Shown piece after piece: positions 3,437 to 61,484 of a DNA stretch of 64,000 nt. The stretch is from Oleiharenicola lentus. GTDB lineage: Bacteria > Verrucomicrobiota > Verrucomicrobiia > Opitutales > Opitutaceae. Under the pieces are notes generated by a model, which did not search any database, was not told the origin of the DNA, and saw only the letters and a list, made by a program, of their open reading frames with translations. The translations under genes and the position numbers were made by a program. Within the stretch, counting starts at the first letter, position 1; every line of letters begins with the position of its first letter. The stretch spans positions 733,001-797,000 of the forward strand of contig NZ_SDHX01000002.1 of the NCBI RefSeq assembly GCF_004118375.1. Direction: 5' to 3'.

Positions 3437-3580
3437 GGAAGTAATATACACCCTTGCAGGCGGCGGGCCAGCGGGTGAAGGCCTGCTTCACTCGGGAATT
3501 TGGAACCGCCGCGAATCGGCTGCGCCAATGTGCGCAGGCGGTGTCGCACCGCCGTGACATGATGGCCGTTTCCGTTCCCT

Positions 3581-3638
3581 GTAGGGTCGCCGCTTGCGGC
3601 GACCTAACCCACGAGGTCGGCGCAACCGCCGACCCTAC
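3581..3638. repeat. Two-hairpin repeat, copy 1
   Basis: A 58-nt unit with outer inverted ends GTAGGGTCG and CGACCCTAC. Inside are two hairpins: GGTCGCCGC, loop TT, GCGGCGACC (3585-3604), and GGTCGGCG, loop CAAC, CGCCGACC (3615-3634). The copy at 9286-9338 has the same spacing and the constant blocks ACGAGGTCG and GACCCTAC, but different stem sequences that still pair. Confidence 0.8.
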
Positions 3639-3654
3639 GCATACAGGCGAAGTC

Positions 3655-4795: not shown

Positions 4796-6044
4796 GGCTG
4801 GATTTTCGGTTTTCGATTCTGGATTCTGGACTGGGTCGCGCCGCGAGCAGGCGCTCGAGTTCGGCCGCCAGGGTCGTGCGGTCGGGACAATGCGCCGCGA
4901 CGCTGCCGTCGGGCCGCAGGATGTCGGCCGGGAAGGTGCCATCGGCGCGCTTGGCGGAAAGATCGTTGTGCACGACGTAGTCGGCACCGGCGTGCGCGAA
5001 AAGCCTGCTCACGGCCGCGTCGGCTTCCGCCGCCTCGGCCCCGTGGGTGAGCTTGAATGCCACCAACGTGAACGGGGCGCGGCTCCAACCGCGCACCTGG
5101 TCCACTAGCCGCGGGTTGGGTCGCAGCTTCAGCAGGGGCGCACCACCCGAGGGCAGTTTGCCGCCGGCGGCGGTCTCCGCACCGTCGGCCATCACGACCA
5201 TGTCCACGCGGTAATCGCTGACCGCCGCCGCGTGGATCACGGCATCGAACGGATGCGCCGCGAGCAACCGACGCAGGCCGGCCTCCAGTTGCGCGAAGGT
5301 GACAAAGGTTTCCTCCCGGCAGGGGCCGTCCGCCGCGATCGCGTTTTGCGCCCGCAGCAGGGTCACGTCATGGCCCGCGCGCGACAGGTGCGTGGCGATG
5401 AGCGCGCCGGTCGCACCCGTGCTCGTGTTGGTGAGCACGCGCACGCCGTCCACCGGCTCGGCGGTGCCACCGGCGGTGACGAGCACCCGCAGTTGGCGCG
5501 CCGGTCGCGCCAGCGCCGCTTCGACCGCGGCGACGATCGTCCCGGGCTCGGCCAGCCGCCCCTCCCCCGTTTCGCCGCAGGCGGTGCGCCCGGACGTGGG
5601 GGCGATGCAGCGCACGCCCCAGTCGCGCAATTTTGCCAAGCTCGCAACGGTTGCCGGATGCGACCACATCGCGGGATTCATCGCGGGCGCCACGAGCCAG
5701 GGCTTGGTGCGGTCATGGGCGAGGAAGAGCGCGCCGGCGAAATCGTCGCCGAGCCCGGCCGCGAACCGGTTGAGCGTGTTCGCCGTGGCCGGGCACACGA
5801 GCACGGCGTCGGCCCAGCGCGTCAGGTTGATGTGCTCGAGGGCCGCGCCCGGAGCGAAGGCGTCGCTGAGCAGGGCGGAACCGGTCAGACCTTCCAGCGT
5901 GGCCGGGCCGATGAACTTCAACGCCGACGGCGTCGCCACACAGCGCACGCGGTGGCCCCGTTGCACAAGCCGTGACACCACCTCGCAGCCCTTGTAGGCG
6001 GCGATGGAGCCGGTGAAGATGACGAGGAGGTTAGAGCCGGACAT
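4779..6044 (-). CDS. coaBC: Bifunctional PPC decarboxylase / PPC synthetase CoaBC (Dfp)
   Basis: Joins 4'-phosphopantothenate to cysteine (CoaB) and decarboxylates the product to 4'-phosphopantetheine (CoaC). The N-terminal ~175 residues are the FMN-binding CoaC domain, with active-site His in [10 protein letters not shown], the PAMNPAMW substrate motif near 119-126 and the flap cysteine in ACGETGEGR. The CoaB half begins near 183 ([11 protein letters not shown]) and carries NTSTGATG and AAAVSDYR. The C-terminal tail [17 protein letters not shown] looks unlike a folded end and comes from a heptamer word array, so the gene probably gained it by repeat insertion. It overlaps panC by 14 nt upstream and coaX by 17 nt downstream. 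Confidence 0.96.
4803..4830. repeat. Heptamer word array (four units) in the coaBC 3' end
   Basis: Four consecutive 7-nt words on the plus strand: TTTTCGG, TTTTCGA, TTCTGGA, TTCTGGA. The array lies inside the last codons of coaBC and just upstream of the coaX start, so coaBC translates it into a low-complexity tail (SRIENRK). It belongs to the word-array class described in the findings. Confidence 0.7.
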
Positions 6045-9226: not shown

Positions 9227-9233
9227 TTCCTCG

Positions 9234-9338
9234 TGGAGGGCCGGTCTCCGCACCGGCCGTGCATTGCAGATCTTTCCTCTCTAGCGTCGGGCCTTGGCCC
9301 GACCTCGCGCACGAGGTCGTCGCCAGCGACGACCCTAC
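9234..9338. repeat. Half TGGAGGG element followed by two-hairpin repeat, copy 2
   Basis: 9234-9258 begins TGGAGGG and folds as GGCCGGT / ACCGGCC; it looks like the left half of the element seen complete at 13851. 9286-9338 is the second copy of the 3581 family: hairpin GTCGGGCC, TT, GGCCCGAC (9286-9303), constant block ACGAGGTCG, hairpin GGTCGTCG, CCAG, CGACGACC (9315-9334), end CTAC. Spacing equals copy 1, while the stems differ and remain paired. Confidence 0.75.
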
Positions 9339-9392
9339 AAACTCCCCGTCGCTTGTCGTCGCCGACGCGACCAATTTCCCCCATTTGCCGCT

Positions 9393-9420
9393 TTGACCGC
9401 GCGCGAGTGTTGGTTATGAC
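9393..9420 (+). promoter_or_regulatory. Candidate sigma-70-type promoter for the iorA/Moco cluster
   Basis: TTGACC (5 of 6 to the -35 consensus) and TATGAC (4 of 6 to -10), separated by 16 nt, end 20 nt before the iorA start. This is inferred from sequence only. No molybdate-responsive (ModE-like) operator or Moco riboswitch fold was recognised around it. Confidence 0.35.
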
Positions 9421-9440
9421 TACGTCACTCCCTCTCCCCC

Positions 9441-13305: not shown

Positions 13306-13363
13306 GCTGGTTTTTGCGCTTTTTGTGCTTCTTGTGGCCAATCCTTCCGTCTCTGATTTCCCC

Positions 13364-13810: not shown

Positions 13811-13955
13811 GGATTTTACCACGAATGGACACGAATGGACACGAATCAGGTGGAGGGCCCGTCTCCCGACGGGCCGCGGCCCAGCTGGAGCTGGACCCTC
13901 CAGCAATCTCCCGCCCTTCTGTGTGTTCCGTGTATTCCGTGGTTAACCAATAGCT
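13811..13955. repeat. Word-array element, CACGAAT type, with nested hairpin element
   Basis: Left arm: the 10-nt word ACGAATGGAC at 13821 and 13831, then ACGAATCAGG at 13841, preceded by TTTTACC. Right arm (about 13921-13950): 9-nt words GTGTGTTCC, GTGTATTCC, GTGGTTAAC. Read on the other strand, the right arm gives the same kind of word, so the arms are inverted. Between them sits the TGGAGGG element at 13851-13902. It fills almost the whole moaC-mog spacer. Confidence 0.8.
13851..13902. repeat. TGGAGGG two-hairpin element nested in a word-array element
   Basis: Outer inverted ends TGGAGGG and CCCTCCA. Hairpin 1 is GGCCCGTC, TCCC, GACGGGCC; hairpin 2 is CCAGCT, GG, AGCTGG. The plan is the same as the 3581/9286 family (outer ends plus two hairpins), with other sequences. 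It sits exactly between the two arms of the CACGAAT element. Confidence 0.75.
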
Positions 13956-16604: not shown

Positions 16605-16671
16605 AACCACTAATCTCCACTAATATTTCACTAATCCGATCCAATTAGTGCCTCATTAGTGGCTATGAGTG
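16605..16671. repeat. Word-array element, CACTAAT type
   Basis: Left arm: CCACTAATCT, CCACTAATAT, TTCACTAATC (10-nt period). Right arm: ATTAGTGCCTC, ATTAGTGGCT, ATGAGTGGT. The arms are inverted copies with about 8 nt between them. It fills the moaA-moaD spacer, and its right end supplies alternative start codons (GTG at 16659, ATG at 16665) in frame with moaD. Confidence 0.8.
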
Positions 16672-16679
16672 GTTTCAAG

Positions 16680-16937: not shown

Positions 16938-16950
16938 GCACCGGCCAGTT

Positions 16951-17048
16951 GGAAGTTGAAGATGAAAGTTGAAGTCAGCCTGCCTACTTTCGTTTAAGGC
17001 CGATTGAGCTGCCTGGTGCTTCAACTTAAACTTACCACTTAAACTTTC
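16951..17048. repeat. Word-array element, AAGTTGA type
   Basis: Left arm GGAAGTTGAAGATGAAAG continuing with TTGAAG (period about 7). Right arm has ACTTAA / ACTTACC / ACTTAA / ACTTTCC words, roughly inverted to the left arm. It occupies the moaD to moaE-moeB spacer and ends 3 nt before the next start codon. A one-armed relative is at 54762-54796. Confidence 0.7.
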
Positions 17049-17051
17049 CCA

Positions 17052-18540: not shown

Positions 18541-18739
18541 GAACCACTAATCGGTTCCGGCAAGGGCCGAAACCTTGTTCCAGCAGCTCTGCCTTATCGG
18601 CTCCGCGGTGAGGAATTTGGGCCAGCTTATCGCAGGCCTTTCAGTGCCGCGATTAGCGGCACCCCTAAATCAAATCCGGAGGCGATTAGCCGAAGGGGAC
18701 TCTGAAGGATTCCTCTTTGAGGAATCCCATTAGTGGTTC
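18541..18739. repeat. Long inverted-repeat element, CACTAAT ends
   Basis: Perfect 11-nt ends GAACCACTAAT (18541-18551) and ATTAGTGGTTC (18729-18739), 199 nt overall. The interior holds two further hairpins: GTGCCGC, GATTA, GCGGCAC, and GGATTCCTC, TTT, GAGGAATCC (18707-18727). No gene is visible inside. The ends use the same word as the 16605 element, but only once each. The right end abuts the xdhC 5' end. Confidence 0.75.
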
Positions 18740-20611: not shown

Positions 20612-20699
20612 GAACCGCTAATCTTCGCTGATCCGCGCTAATTCCAAACCGTCTGGATCGGGAATCATTAGCGGAGATTAGCGTCCATTAGCGGTTAAC
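20612..20699. repeat. Word-array element, ATTAGCG type
   Basis: Right arm is three perfect-phase 10-nt words: ATTAGCGGAG, ATTAGCGTCC, ATTAGCGGTT (20667-20696). Left arm is the inverted form beginning AACCGCTAAT (from 20613), with weaker repeats CGCTGATCCG and CGCTAATTCC. The arms enclose about 20 nt. The element contains the stop codon (20688-20690) of the next gene. Confidence 0.85.
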
Positions 20700-22290: not shown

Positions 22291-22374
22291 GTTTAACCAC
22301 GGATGTACACGGATAAATACAGATCCAGTCGAACCATCGAGCTTTCGTGTATTTGGTGTATTTCGTGGTGACCC
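22291..22374. repeat. Word-array element, CACGGAT/TTTCGTGTA type
   Basis: Left arm, 10-nt period: CACGGATGTA, CACGGATAAA, TACAGATCC. Right arm, 9-nt period: TTTCGTGTA, TTTGGTGTA, TTTCGTGGT (about 22344-22370). The flanks TTTAACC and GGTGACC are inverted. It fills the spacer between two minus-strand genes. The left arm has changed (CGGAT) relative to the CACGAA family, but the period is preserved. Confidence 0.8.
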
Positions 22375-25707: not shown

Positions 25708-25878
25708 TTTAACCACGAAACAAACGAAACACACAAAATTTCAGATCCTTCGGTCTTTTCGCGGGAGTACGCGAAGGGGAAAGGCCAGAAGGCCAGTCAG
25801 AGAAGGCCCTATGTTGATAGCGTTGTTTTGCGCAGCAATCCCCACCTTTTCGTGTCTTTCGTGTGTTTCGTGGTGACT
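25708..25878. repeat. Word-array element, ACGAAAC/TTTCGTG type
   Basis: Left arm, 9-nt period: CCACGAAAC, AAACGAAAC, ACACAAAAT (25713-25739). Right arm, 9-nt period: TTTCGTGTC, TTTCGTGTG, TTTCGTGGT (about 25848-25875). About 107 nt lie between the arms, without a gene. It fills the spacer between the haloperoxidase-like gene and the ASPIC gene. Confidence 0.85.
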
Positions 25879-39593: not shown

Positions 39594-39638
39594 ATATGGG
39601 ACTCATGGGGCCTATGGGACGTATAGGGCCTATAAGGG
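39594..39638. repeat. Nonamer word array (five units) between kinase and regulator
   Basis: Five consecutive 9-nt words on the plus strand: ATATGGGAC, TCATGGGGC, CTATGGGAC, GTATAGGGC, CTATAAGGG. The array starts 7 nt upstream of the regulator's start codon and contains the stop codon (TAG on the minus strand) of the kinase gene. Confidence 0.85.
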
Positions 39639-42500: not shown

Positions 42501-42512
42501 GGGCGAAGTGCC

Positions 42513-42632
42513 AAGTATCAGGTTACACGAAACAAGAAGCGGCACAACCGATCCGGCATTGTCTGCGCCGCCGGGCATCGTCTTTCGTCAACGCGGCCCC
42601 TGATACTTGTTACTTGAAACTTGTTACTTCCC
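42513..42632. repeat. Word-array element, heptamer ACTTGTT type
   Basis: Right arm is four in-phase 7-nt words: ACTTGTT, ACTTGAA, ACTTGTT, ACTTCCC (42605-42632). The left arm has the inverted ends AAGTATCAGG (42513-42522) against CCTGATACTT (42599-42608), perfect over 10 nt. About 75 nt of ordinary-looking sequence lie between. It fills the spacer before the SEC-C gene. Confidence 0.85.
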
Positions 42633-46518: not shown

Positions 46519-46526
46519 GGAGATTC

Positions 46527-46554
46527 ACGATCTACGATTGACGAATTACGATTT
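46527..46554. repeat. Heptamer word array, ACGATTG type (four units)
   Basis: Four consecutive 7-nt words: ACGATCT, ACGATTG, ACGAATT, ACGATTT. It begins 8 nt after the stop codon of the dikinase-like gene. No inverted partner arm is visible in the following 150 nt, which otherwise hold nothing recognisable. Confidence 0.85.
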
Positions 46555-46709
46555 AGCCGGATCCGAAACGGGCTGACCATGAATCGCTGCATTTAAGCAG
46601 GAGCCGCGTTGGAGCGTAGCGACAACGTGGTCTCATTCGGCCACGCTTTCGTCCCGCGGACACGAGACTCAAGCACGGCTACACCTTGGTTGGATACACG
46701 GCATGCCGC

Positions 46710-52069: not shown

Positions 52070-52157
52070 ACAAATCCGGAGCTTCAGCAAGACTGGGCCA
52101 GCATCCCCACGCCGCAGGCTGCTGCGACTTTTATGCTTTTTGTGACCATGCCCCTCA

Positions 52158-54753: not shown

Positions 54754-54796
54754 CCCGTGAACCGTTGAAGTTTAAATTGGCAGTTTAAGTTTACCC
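54741..54796. repeat. Stop-codon palindrome and one-armed word array after pyrH
   Basis: 54741-54763: GGTTCACGGGT, G, ACCCGTGAACC, perfect 11-nt arms with the pyrH TGA in the centre. 54762-54796: GTTGAAGTTTAAATTGG then CAGTTTAAGTTTACC, a relative of the array at 16951 with AAGTTTA words. Confidence 0.75.
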
Positions 54797-58935: not shown

Positions 58936-59249
58936 GCCGCGGGCTGGCCGGTCTCCACCCCGGCCAGCCATGGACCACCTTCTCGCTGCTGTGAGCGGGA
59001 GGGCCCTCGTCCCGACGGGCCGGCAGGTGGAGCCCGCGCTCCGCGCGGGCTTGCTGCCAGTAGCCGCCTGGGAGCGCAGTCCCTCGACAGGCTCGGGACC
59101 CCTTCGGCGGCTGCTCAGGGCCTGAGCTTGTCGAACGGCTTGAGCTTGTCGAAACGGCGACAAGGTGGTCCGTCCATATCCACGGTCCGCCGGGACGCGG
59201 AGCCTCCGCCCAAAGCCGGTGGGTGCGGAGACCGACCCTCCACGCCGCC
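58936..59249. repeat. Repeat-packed spacer after hppA
   Basis: 314 nt with no gene. It holds several hairpins: GGCTGGCCGG / CCGGCCAGCC (about 58943-58970), a GGGCC...CGGGCC hairpin near 59000 and GCCCGCGC, TCC, GCGCGGGC near 59033. A tandem TGAGCTTGTCGAA word occurs twice, 18 nt apart (about 59122-59155). TGGAG and CCCTCCA ends resemble the 13851 element, so this may be several insertions in each other. Confidence 0.6.
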
Positions 59250-61398: not shown

Positions 61399-61484
61399 CT
61401 CTGGATTCTTCGCCACACTCAGAGTGGCAGATTAGTAAACGTCATCCCAAACGTGTCATGCTGAGCGCAGCGAAGAATCCAGAG
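61399..61484. repeat. Inverted repeat with 15-nt perfect arms
   Basis: CTCTGGATTCTTCGC (61399-61413) and GCGAAGAATCCAGAG (61470-61484), 56 nt apart. The inner side holds CTGAGCGCAGCGAAG, a word I have seen in spacers of many environmental bacteria. It is in the convergent gap between two genes and has no T-run. Confidence 0.85.

Follow-up and report, generated by a model that had tools for sequence, protein, structure and literature searches.

Intergenic short-word arrays of Oleiharenicola lentus as probable arms of many families of small mobile hairpins

Several spacers of Oleiharenicola lentus carry short words repeated in tandem at a regular period, which raises the question of whether such arrays exceed chance and, if so, how different words come to have one layout. 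We addressed this question from a 64-kb window, the whole stretch of DNA analysed (C2:733001-797000), in the 4.71-Mb, two-contig genome of this bacterium (G000). The original prediction had named 13 places in this window, and the described words are present at all 13; of the places listed as weaker, 18541 shows a single clear word in each arm and 54762 is weak.

Local periodicity was scored at 4–20 nt in 230 spacers from 464 kb of G000 (the window and 20 evenly spaced 20-kb stretches), using approximate gene calls based on codon usage and 20 dinucleotide shuffles as control. A spacer was counted at a periodicity score of at least 9. At period 7, 11/230 spacers reach this score compared to a shuffle mean of 0.85, and at period 14, 15/230 do so (0.95). 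Period 9 gives 11/230 (0.75) and period 18 gives 4/230 (0.65), followed by 3/230 each at period 10 (0.8) and period 20 (0.45). A small excess is also present at period 4 (4/230, shuffle mean 0.55), and only 0–2 of the 230 spacers score at periods 5, 6, 8, 11–13, 15–17 and 19. Since the window had been picked for its arrays, the count was repeated without it. The remaining 197 spacers give 9 at period 7 (shuffles 0.35), 13 at period 14 (0.6), 6 at period 9 (0.55), 2 at period 10 (0.6), 3 at period 20 (0.3) and 3 at period 4 (0.7). The excess over shuffles is clear at 7/14 and 9/18 and weak at 10/20, in agreement with the earlier suggestion that particular periods are favoured; "no excess", the outcome that had been set beforehand as speaking against the arrays, was not obtained.

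A density scan of 1.35 Mb of G000 and its sister G003, counting segments scoring at least 10, yielded 230 period-7 segments per Mb of noncoding DNA (44 segments) versus 16 per Mb of coding DNA (19), a 14-fold higher density. Period 10 is 18-fold denser in noncoding DNA, with 47 per Mb (9 segments) versus 2.6 (3), and periods 8, 11 and 13 gave 2, 2 and 3 noncoding segments. Period 9 is also frequent in coding DNA (57.6 per Mb versus 104.5 noncoding), as is period 12, and the period-9 case therefore leans mainly on the comparison of spacers with shuffles. Conversely, as period 10 is weak on the spacer score, its support comes from this density difference and from the pattern AACCRCNNATN{1,4}CRCNNAT, which has 35 matches in the G000 genome and 0 when read backwards. 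The arrays are real.

Their common build consists of about 3–5 units, a variable centre and then the same units inverted, each unit having a 4–7-nt core and a 2–3-nt linker and the whole element measuring about 70–250 nt. An inverted partner scoring at least 11 was found for 61/135 array segments of G000 and G003 compared to 3/135 with shuffled flanks, so that the two-armed architecture described earlier does recur, as inverted terminal repeats on a short non-coding element. Of ten sequences folded, 8/8 two-armed elements taken at the right coordinates form predicted hairpins with z from -3.2 to -12.3; the other two are the one-armed array at 39594 and L229, whose coordinates were wrong (z 0.36). 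Long inverted ends made of short tandem repeats also characterize the Foldback (FB) transposons of Drosophila, which are eukaryotic and far longer, and with which no kinship is claimed. The period-10 CACTAAT/CGCTAAT elements read (TT)AACC-CRCNNAT-n3-CRCNNAT-n3(4)-CRCNNAT, followed by a centre of 8–41 nt and the inverted copy; among 13 period-10 elements compared, two CACGGAT elements have centres of 117 and 120 nt. Period-9 relatives are built of CACGGAA, CACGAAA or CACAAAAAG units. In period-7 arms the number of units is four or five and the core measures about 4 bases, e.g. ATTTTNGATTTTNGATTCTCGATTTTNGATT, and in GATT elements the third unit is exactly GATTCTC in 8/10 arms (five elements).

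In the window, the element between moaC and mogA (13814..13946) has three CACGAAT units of period 10 on the left and inverted CACGGAA units of period 9 on the right, around a GC-rich palindromic centre (fold z -3.96). A six-word CACTAAT element of period 10 with an 8-nt centre lies at 16605..16674 (fold z -6.9); it is absent in G003, and the related genome G020 has a CACAGAT element at that place. A six-word CGCTAAT element, also of period 10, was found at 20613..20696 (fold z -5.2), and at 22295..22371 CACGGAT units of period 10 on the left stand opposite CACGAAA/CACCAAA units of period 9 on the right (fold z -3.2). The two-armed CACGAAACA element at 25711..25874 has period 9 and a 109-nt centre. 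Two-armed elements of period 7 are the GTTGAAG element at 16947..17050, common to G020 and absent in G003, and the CAAGTAA element at 42506..42629, whose right arm is common to G003. The element at 18542..18738 (AACCACTAAT ... ATTAGTGGTT) is decayed and its centre contains other repeats; G003 has a different single period-9 arm there, and weak GTTGAAGTTTAA arms of period 7 (54764..54795) are partly common to G003. Single arms comprise a GATTCTG array of period 7 (4804..4834, plus strand) at the junction of two overlapping called genes, not seen in G003, and an ACGATTT array of period 7 (46522..46555, plus strand). Two arrays had been overlooked earlier: a single-armed period-9 array, CACAAGAAG CACAAAAAG CGCAAAAA, on the minus strand at 13311..13339, where G003 lacks a spacer, and a decayed CACAAAAAG arm of period 9 on the minus strand at 52128..52147, which is not in G003. 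The TATAGGGCC-like tandem array of period 9 at 39595..39638 (plus strand) has no inverted arm, its best inverted partner scoring 6.0 (threshold 11; fold z -2.6). It is kept at the same place in G003 while its units drift, unlike most other arrays, and is therefore probably a different thing; it lies between two minus-strand genes, apparently for a sensor kinase and a response regulator according to the ORF layout. At Rfam gathering scores only a tRNA was matched in the window, with no known structured RNA at the arrays. The window spacers 59119-59158, 61455-61475, 9227-9440 and 3437-3654 hold ordinary palindromic repeat families of the GAGCTTGTCGAA, TCATSCTGAGC and GTCGGCGCAACCGCCGACC types.

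Placement was measured in 38 spacers of up to 400 nt with a partnered array (G000 and G003). The arrays begin a median of 8 nt after the preceding gene and end a median of 7.5 nt before the following one, and they occupy a median of 85% of the spacer, which bears out the described position within a few nucleotides of start and stop codons. Arrays are present in 66/431 co-directional, 13/138 divergent and 5/94 convergent spacers (p=0.013).

The words had been thought to change completely between loci. Instead, they recur in families, and the period-9 and period-10 arrays have a common frame, AACC-CRC... Families of period 7 include GATTYTN (26 pattern matches in G000), CAAGKNN, ACGANTT and GACCACN. 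The seven strict elements of genome G013 fall into two families, CACTAAT (3) and CACGAAT (4), each element being uniform except for variants of 1–2 bases. Among relatives, the two-word pattern is present in 35/38 genomes (G000 counted), with 0–3 reversed-control matches per genome and strand. The strict three-word pattern occurs in 44/115 Verrucomicrobiota genomes, with up to 152 matches in G051 and no reversed-control match, and was not found in the 14 genomes of family f16; most genomes compared are drafts. GATT matches number 26 in G000, 23 in G020, 24 in G015, 66 in G022, 1 in G003 and 0 in G013, and GTAGYGR matches (overlapping registers counted) number 0 in G000, 26 in G020, 40 in G015, 63 in G003 and 0 in G013. 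Reversed controls gave 0 in all 38 genomes of each search. Judging from the counts in G000, G020, G015, G003 and G013, the two period-7 families are patchy within one genus. In other collections, the period-10 query retrieved one weak plasmid record and no phage record, and the GATT query retrieved 20 weak plasmid records (among the 15 listed, several cyanobacterial; E 0.02–1), which are suggestive only. In IMG/VR, 21 stretches on 16 putative viral contigs carry the full six-word element. In G040, from another Verrucomicrobiota family, CACAGAT elements seem to lie inside a larger repeated unit (loci L219–L223), with GATATCCCGATC and GAAATCGATTTCG runs in several flanks.

Since G003 is syntenic with much of the studied region, arrays can be compared at the same junctions. 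The regions compared, 464 kb in G000 and 490 kb in G003, yielded 192 reciprocal best orthologues and 131 conserved junctions, one of which was dropped for length; the resulting view of turnover rests on this genome pair and on one operon in 14 genomes or contigs. At a score of at least 9, 7 of the 130 junctions score in both genomes, 14 only in G000, 10 only in G003 and 99 in neither, so whole arrays appear and vanish between sister species, a point that had been raised beforehand. At six of the seven junctions that score in both, the two genomes differ in word (period-9 CACGGAA versus period-7 GTAGCGA; GATTCTG-type versus GACGGAG; GACAGAG versus GTAGCGA; GATT versus CAAGG; GATT versus AAGAATT; CACGAAT versus AAGAAGT), and one has GATT in both. 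When decayed arms are included by eye, 13 junctions are armed on both sides; 6 keep the word (22, 33, 35, 42, 135 and 42500) and 7/13 differ, namely the six scored ones and junction 87 (CACTAAT versus CGCTAAT). By eye, 3/31 scoring junctions (14, 122 and 218, all single-sided) look like chance. Co-occupancy of junctions is above chance (Fisher OR 4.95, p=0.007); shared descent explains part of it, and selection for an array at these places could also contribute. At junction 25, where G000 has a GACCAC array, a called gene of G003 starts with sequence that reads as a period-7 AAATTTC array.

The operon compared is the one with moaC and mogA. These genes overlap by 4 nt in G002, G006, G008, G013, G018 and L004, and four different inserts separate them elsewhere: the element of G000, a CACAGAT element in G020, a period-7 AAGAAGT array in G003 and a mixed remnant in G012. 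Other palindromes are present in G009 and G005, and the gene pair was not found on the stretch examined in G016, G007 and L003. The G012 remnant combines a period-7 left arm as in G003 with a CCACGGAAT right arm as in G000, as expected if elements were once nested and then lost differently. Nesting was also observed in G009, where a two-armed period-9 array encloses a two-armed period-7 array and another single arm lies between the two, and in G095, where CGCGGAT arms lie inside CACGAAT-type arms. Whole array composites are repeated within a few hundred bases in G074 (L225, L226), suggesting tandem duplication as well.

The clearest copies come from G022, for which 20 GATT loci were fetched, picked mostly for both arms being listed. 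A two-armed element is present at 18/20 of them, 13 measuring 109–110 nt and the others 105–226 nt. The 109–110-nt copies align end to end with conserved arms and unrelated flanks, and thus show sharp boundaries in this one family examined closely. In addition, two loci of G020 lying 3 kb apart are 86% alike over 196 nt of arms and centre. To judge from the alignments, the bounded G022 family and the G020 pair give the strongest indications that elements move whole. Most period-10 copies have common words and differ in linkers and centres, a pattern that simple recent copying does not give, so movement is in their case deduced from the common build and from presence and absence. A search for target-site duplications in 18 G022 copies (k=2–10) found none, the lowest tail being 41/500 shuffles at k=5, and a classical DDE transposase is therefore not supported; two suggestive flanks in G000 (junctions 128 and 130) are not enough to count. 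At 1857-1910 of locus L260 in G022, long homopolymer runs of G and of C look like an assembly artefact.

Comparison of sequences alone thus finds the families dispersed, unequal in copy number among relatives, present or absent at the same junction and in several cases nested. We therefore lean towards the reading, which we consider fairly probable, that the arrays are the arms of many families of small, non-coding, non-autonomous mobile hairpins that have one build and nest in each other. The elements would move as single-stranded or cruciform hairpins, mobilised by a trans-acting enzyme that recognises the core words; if so, the words would stay alike while linkers and centres drift. Survival would be favoured mainly where insertion is harmless, namely in the few bases between the stop and start codons of co-directional genes. 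Different words at one place would then reflect a series of insertions into earlier elements that were partly lost, rather than rewriting of the word. The earlier remark that the arrays are hard to explain as one transposed sequence agrees with this, and descent of all arrays from a single MITE family, the other outcome considered beforehand, was not what we found, as there are many families instead.

A further test concerned the words within single elements. It used 57 six-word period-10 elements, 27 from 15 searched genomes (9 with a match) and 30 out of 34 elements from a second set, and because the search pattern fixes most word positions, only three free positions were compared. These agree in about 85% of cases within an element; between elements the figure is 80% inside a single genome or contig and 42% across genomes. 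Agreement within elements (0.858) exceeds the same-genome permutation mean (0.803), with 0/1000 shuffles reaching it (45/57 elements permutable). Linkers behave in the opposite way, their agreement of 0.514 lying below the permutation value of 0.554, and all 1000 shuffles reach the observed value. A word resembles its pairing partner (0.846) no more than it resembles the remaining words across the centre (0.849), so preservation appears to concern single words and not stems, and stem covariation as the cause of word agreement was rejected. Exceptions are G102:C9:237678, with one CACAGAT arm and one CACGAAT arm, and the window elements 13814 and 22295, whose arms carry different words. Of the earlier idea of a process that writes words, only a narrow part is left, namely this agreement of the six words of period-10 elements beyond the genome average, which the linkers do not show. 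A role of the words as stop codons in all frames, which would need a stop in the word and a period not divisible by 3, was rejected by eye, with GACCAC, CACGGAA and CACAAAAAG lacking a stop and period 9 keeping the frame.

Word-without-linker agreement bears on two further readings. As a tentative extension, which we consider possible but doubtful, the elements might form a superfamily of mobile hairpins in which the periodic architecture is fixed and the end words are interchangeable, each word being read singly by its own or a modular protein. New word families could then arise with the build unchanged, compete for junctions and nest, and six-word identity without linker identity would, if this were true, be the footprint of the reader. 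The alternative without movement is that each word is bound by a regulator acting cooperatively on DNA or RNA, the arms giving six to eight sites, and that the array is immobile and gained or lost like an operator. The preserved single words and the excess co-occupancy of junctions both fit such sites, and the authors of a report on Geobacter metallireducens, in its available text, read similar paired arrays as putative binding sites of a global regulator (PMC2700814). However, the arrays fit closely into the gap from stop to start codon, in most cases that of two co-directional genes, and many are missing at the same junction of sister species. The G022 family has sharp boundaries and its flanks are unrelated, sisters differ in word family at the same junction, and the three exceptions to word agreement also argue against a regulatory origin, which we consider unlikely.

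Less likely still is a variant of REPIN/REP elements, with the arrays as no more than the outer portion of GTAG-type REP pairs that Y1 (RAYT) transposases move. Most of the aligned G022 elements do enclose two inner mini-hairpins, many with GGTAGC/GCTACC, and no target-site duplication was found; in 9/10 spacers holding both a REP and an arm (loose arm pattern), the REP is on the arm's inner side, a position that also counts as nesting, and Opitutus terrae is reported, in the portion of the source seen, as rich in GTAG repeats (PMC3733652). Moreover, Y1 transposases occur in 35/35 genomes with at least 3 strict matches versus 45/80 others (G058 only at E 8e-4), RVT_1 is associated less strongly (20/35 versus 19/80, p=0.001) and DDE_Tnp_1 is not associated (20/35 versus 34/80, p=0.16), all in counts that ignore shared descent. 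DDE_Tnp_1 has no match in G000, nor has RVT_1 at E 0.001, and writing by a reverse transcriptase or telomerase-like enzyme was rejected on the latter ground. Against the REP reading, the 8–41-nt centres of the CACTAAT/CGCTAAT elements are by eye without a GTAG-tagged palindrome, and G078 has 34 Y1 genes and 0 pattern matches. Arms are present at 6/30 Y1 loci from eight genomes versus 35/292 background stretches (G000 23/142, G003 12/150) and hence not clearly enriched around Y1 genes, whose flanks at these 30 loci hold ordinary palindromes in many cases and few arms. A Y1 enzyme was accordingly rejected as the demonstrated agent, the evidence being co-occurrence with no clear local enrichment. 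In G024 (L253, 1155-2030), a Y1 transposase gene has a CGCGGATGG array-arm start and a GACGATGCGGAGCATCGTCC palindrome on both sides.

Very improbable, in our judgement, is growth in situ, in which each locus invents its own word, the tandem copies arising by replication slippage and the inverted arm by fold-back template switching. Heptamers are over-represented in bacteria, for which polymerase slippage has been proposed (as quoted in the accessible part of PMC4679880), the G003 array at moaC starts within the final codons of that gene, and L086:19481 is a perfect 30-nt inverted repeat. However, the median left-right similarity of a locus's own arms at period 7 is 18.9 (n=20), no higher than the 19.0 between loci of a family (n=86), in a comparison where families were defined by arm similarity, which favours the between-locus value, and where five of 39 pairs were left out as singletons, among them L086:19481. 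At period 9, own-arm similarity is above that between loci (14.9, n=10, versus 12.6, n=58). GATT arms have the order of units in common between different loci, the same word frame recurs in 44/115 genomes of the phylum, and slippage of whole units would copy the linkers, which in period-10 elements agree less than under permutation. On balance, a locus does not appear to make its own word, contrary to the proposal of a new word written at each locus, since words are common to many loci and to other genomes; for the families tested, growth in situ is contradicted. Intrinsic transcription terminators or RNA-processing hairpins are scarcely credible in spite of the strong predicted hairpins at gene ends, because arrays are least common between convergent genes and commonest between co-directional ones and no T run was seen by eye to close them regularly.

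Elements of this kind are already known in pieces from reports on Geobacter, Xanthomonas and TAACTGA repeats, as far as the text available to us extends. Opposite-strand pairs of tandem 7–9-nt repeats at variable distance were described in Geobacter metallireducens, in the classes 5x MTYCTGA, 4x GTTGCTYN and 3x TCTCCGTS[Y], with 24 pairs, 21 locations and 8 pairs, respectively; G. sulfurreducens has a different repeated sequence in the same proBA spacer (PMC2700814). The present spacers hold pairs of the same layout, a likeness of description. In the available text, those arrays are listed class by class for one genome and include period 8, whereas G000 has no period-8 excess and the present account adds period statistics, the word/linker test, nesting and turnover. 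GGGAATC heptamers of Xanthomonas and Nostoc, mostly four units with the core GGGANTN, are over-represented in non-coding DNA and form 70 and 75 inverted pairs in two genomes; as reported in the parts seen, they represent one G-rich word explained by G-quadruplexes, with 83% of repeats kept in place between two species (PMC4692102), whereas most words here are not G-rich and turnover is high. TAACTGA heptamers of Beggiatoaceae, Cyanobacteria and Bacteroidetes likewise lie a few nucleotides from start codons and are patchy across phyla, but are described in the accessible text as one word, almost always direct (one inverted case) and mostly in one orientation to the start codon (PMC4679880). REPs and REPINs are likewise small intergenic hairpins spread by copying and occurring as inverted pairs, but REPs are given in the text seen as 20–40-nt palindromes, most of them GTAG/CGTC-tagged (PMC3733652), whereas the arrays form tandem-word arms, many without an evident tag. 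The BrickBuilt MITE of Porphyromonas gingivalis is intergenic with tandem units and small inverted ends, as here, but, as far as its description was available, consists of one 23-nt unit in one species with the repeat in the body (PMC4596501) and not in the arms.

Literature searches recognised no publication on multi-family periodic-arm elements in Verrucomicrobiota, which is weak evidence of absence given their thin coverage of subscription journals. Apparently new, in that we did not see them in the available portions of the related heptamer and octamer papers, are the many one-build families per genome, the 9/10 CRCNNAT class across the phylum, word-without-linker agreement, nesting and replacement at fixed junctions. 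Altogether, the results point to a class of small dispersed elements that turn over fast and have been little described. Single-array reports have so far each been given a local explanation (quadruplexes, a regulator or slippage), and the coexistence of families with one build in one genome, the recurrence of one word frame across the phylum and the frequent replacement of families at the same junctions make a common mechanism testable. The favoured periods (7 and 9 nt and a 10-nt class, in G000 neither 8 nor 11) and the agreement of words without linkers are clues to a putative reader. If the elements are mobile, they would contribute importantly to the origin of new spacers and to the breaking of gene overlaps in operons.
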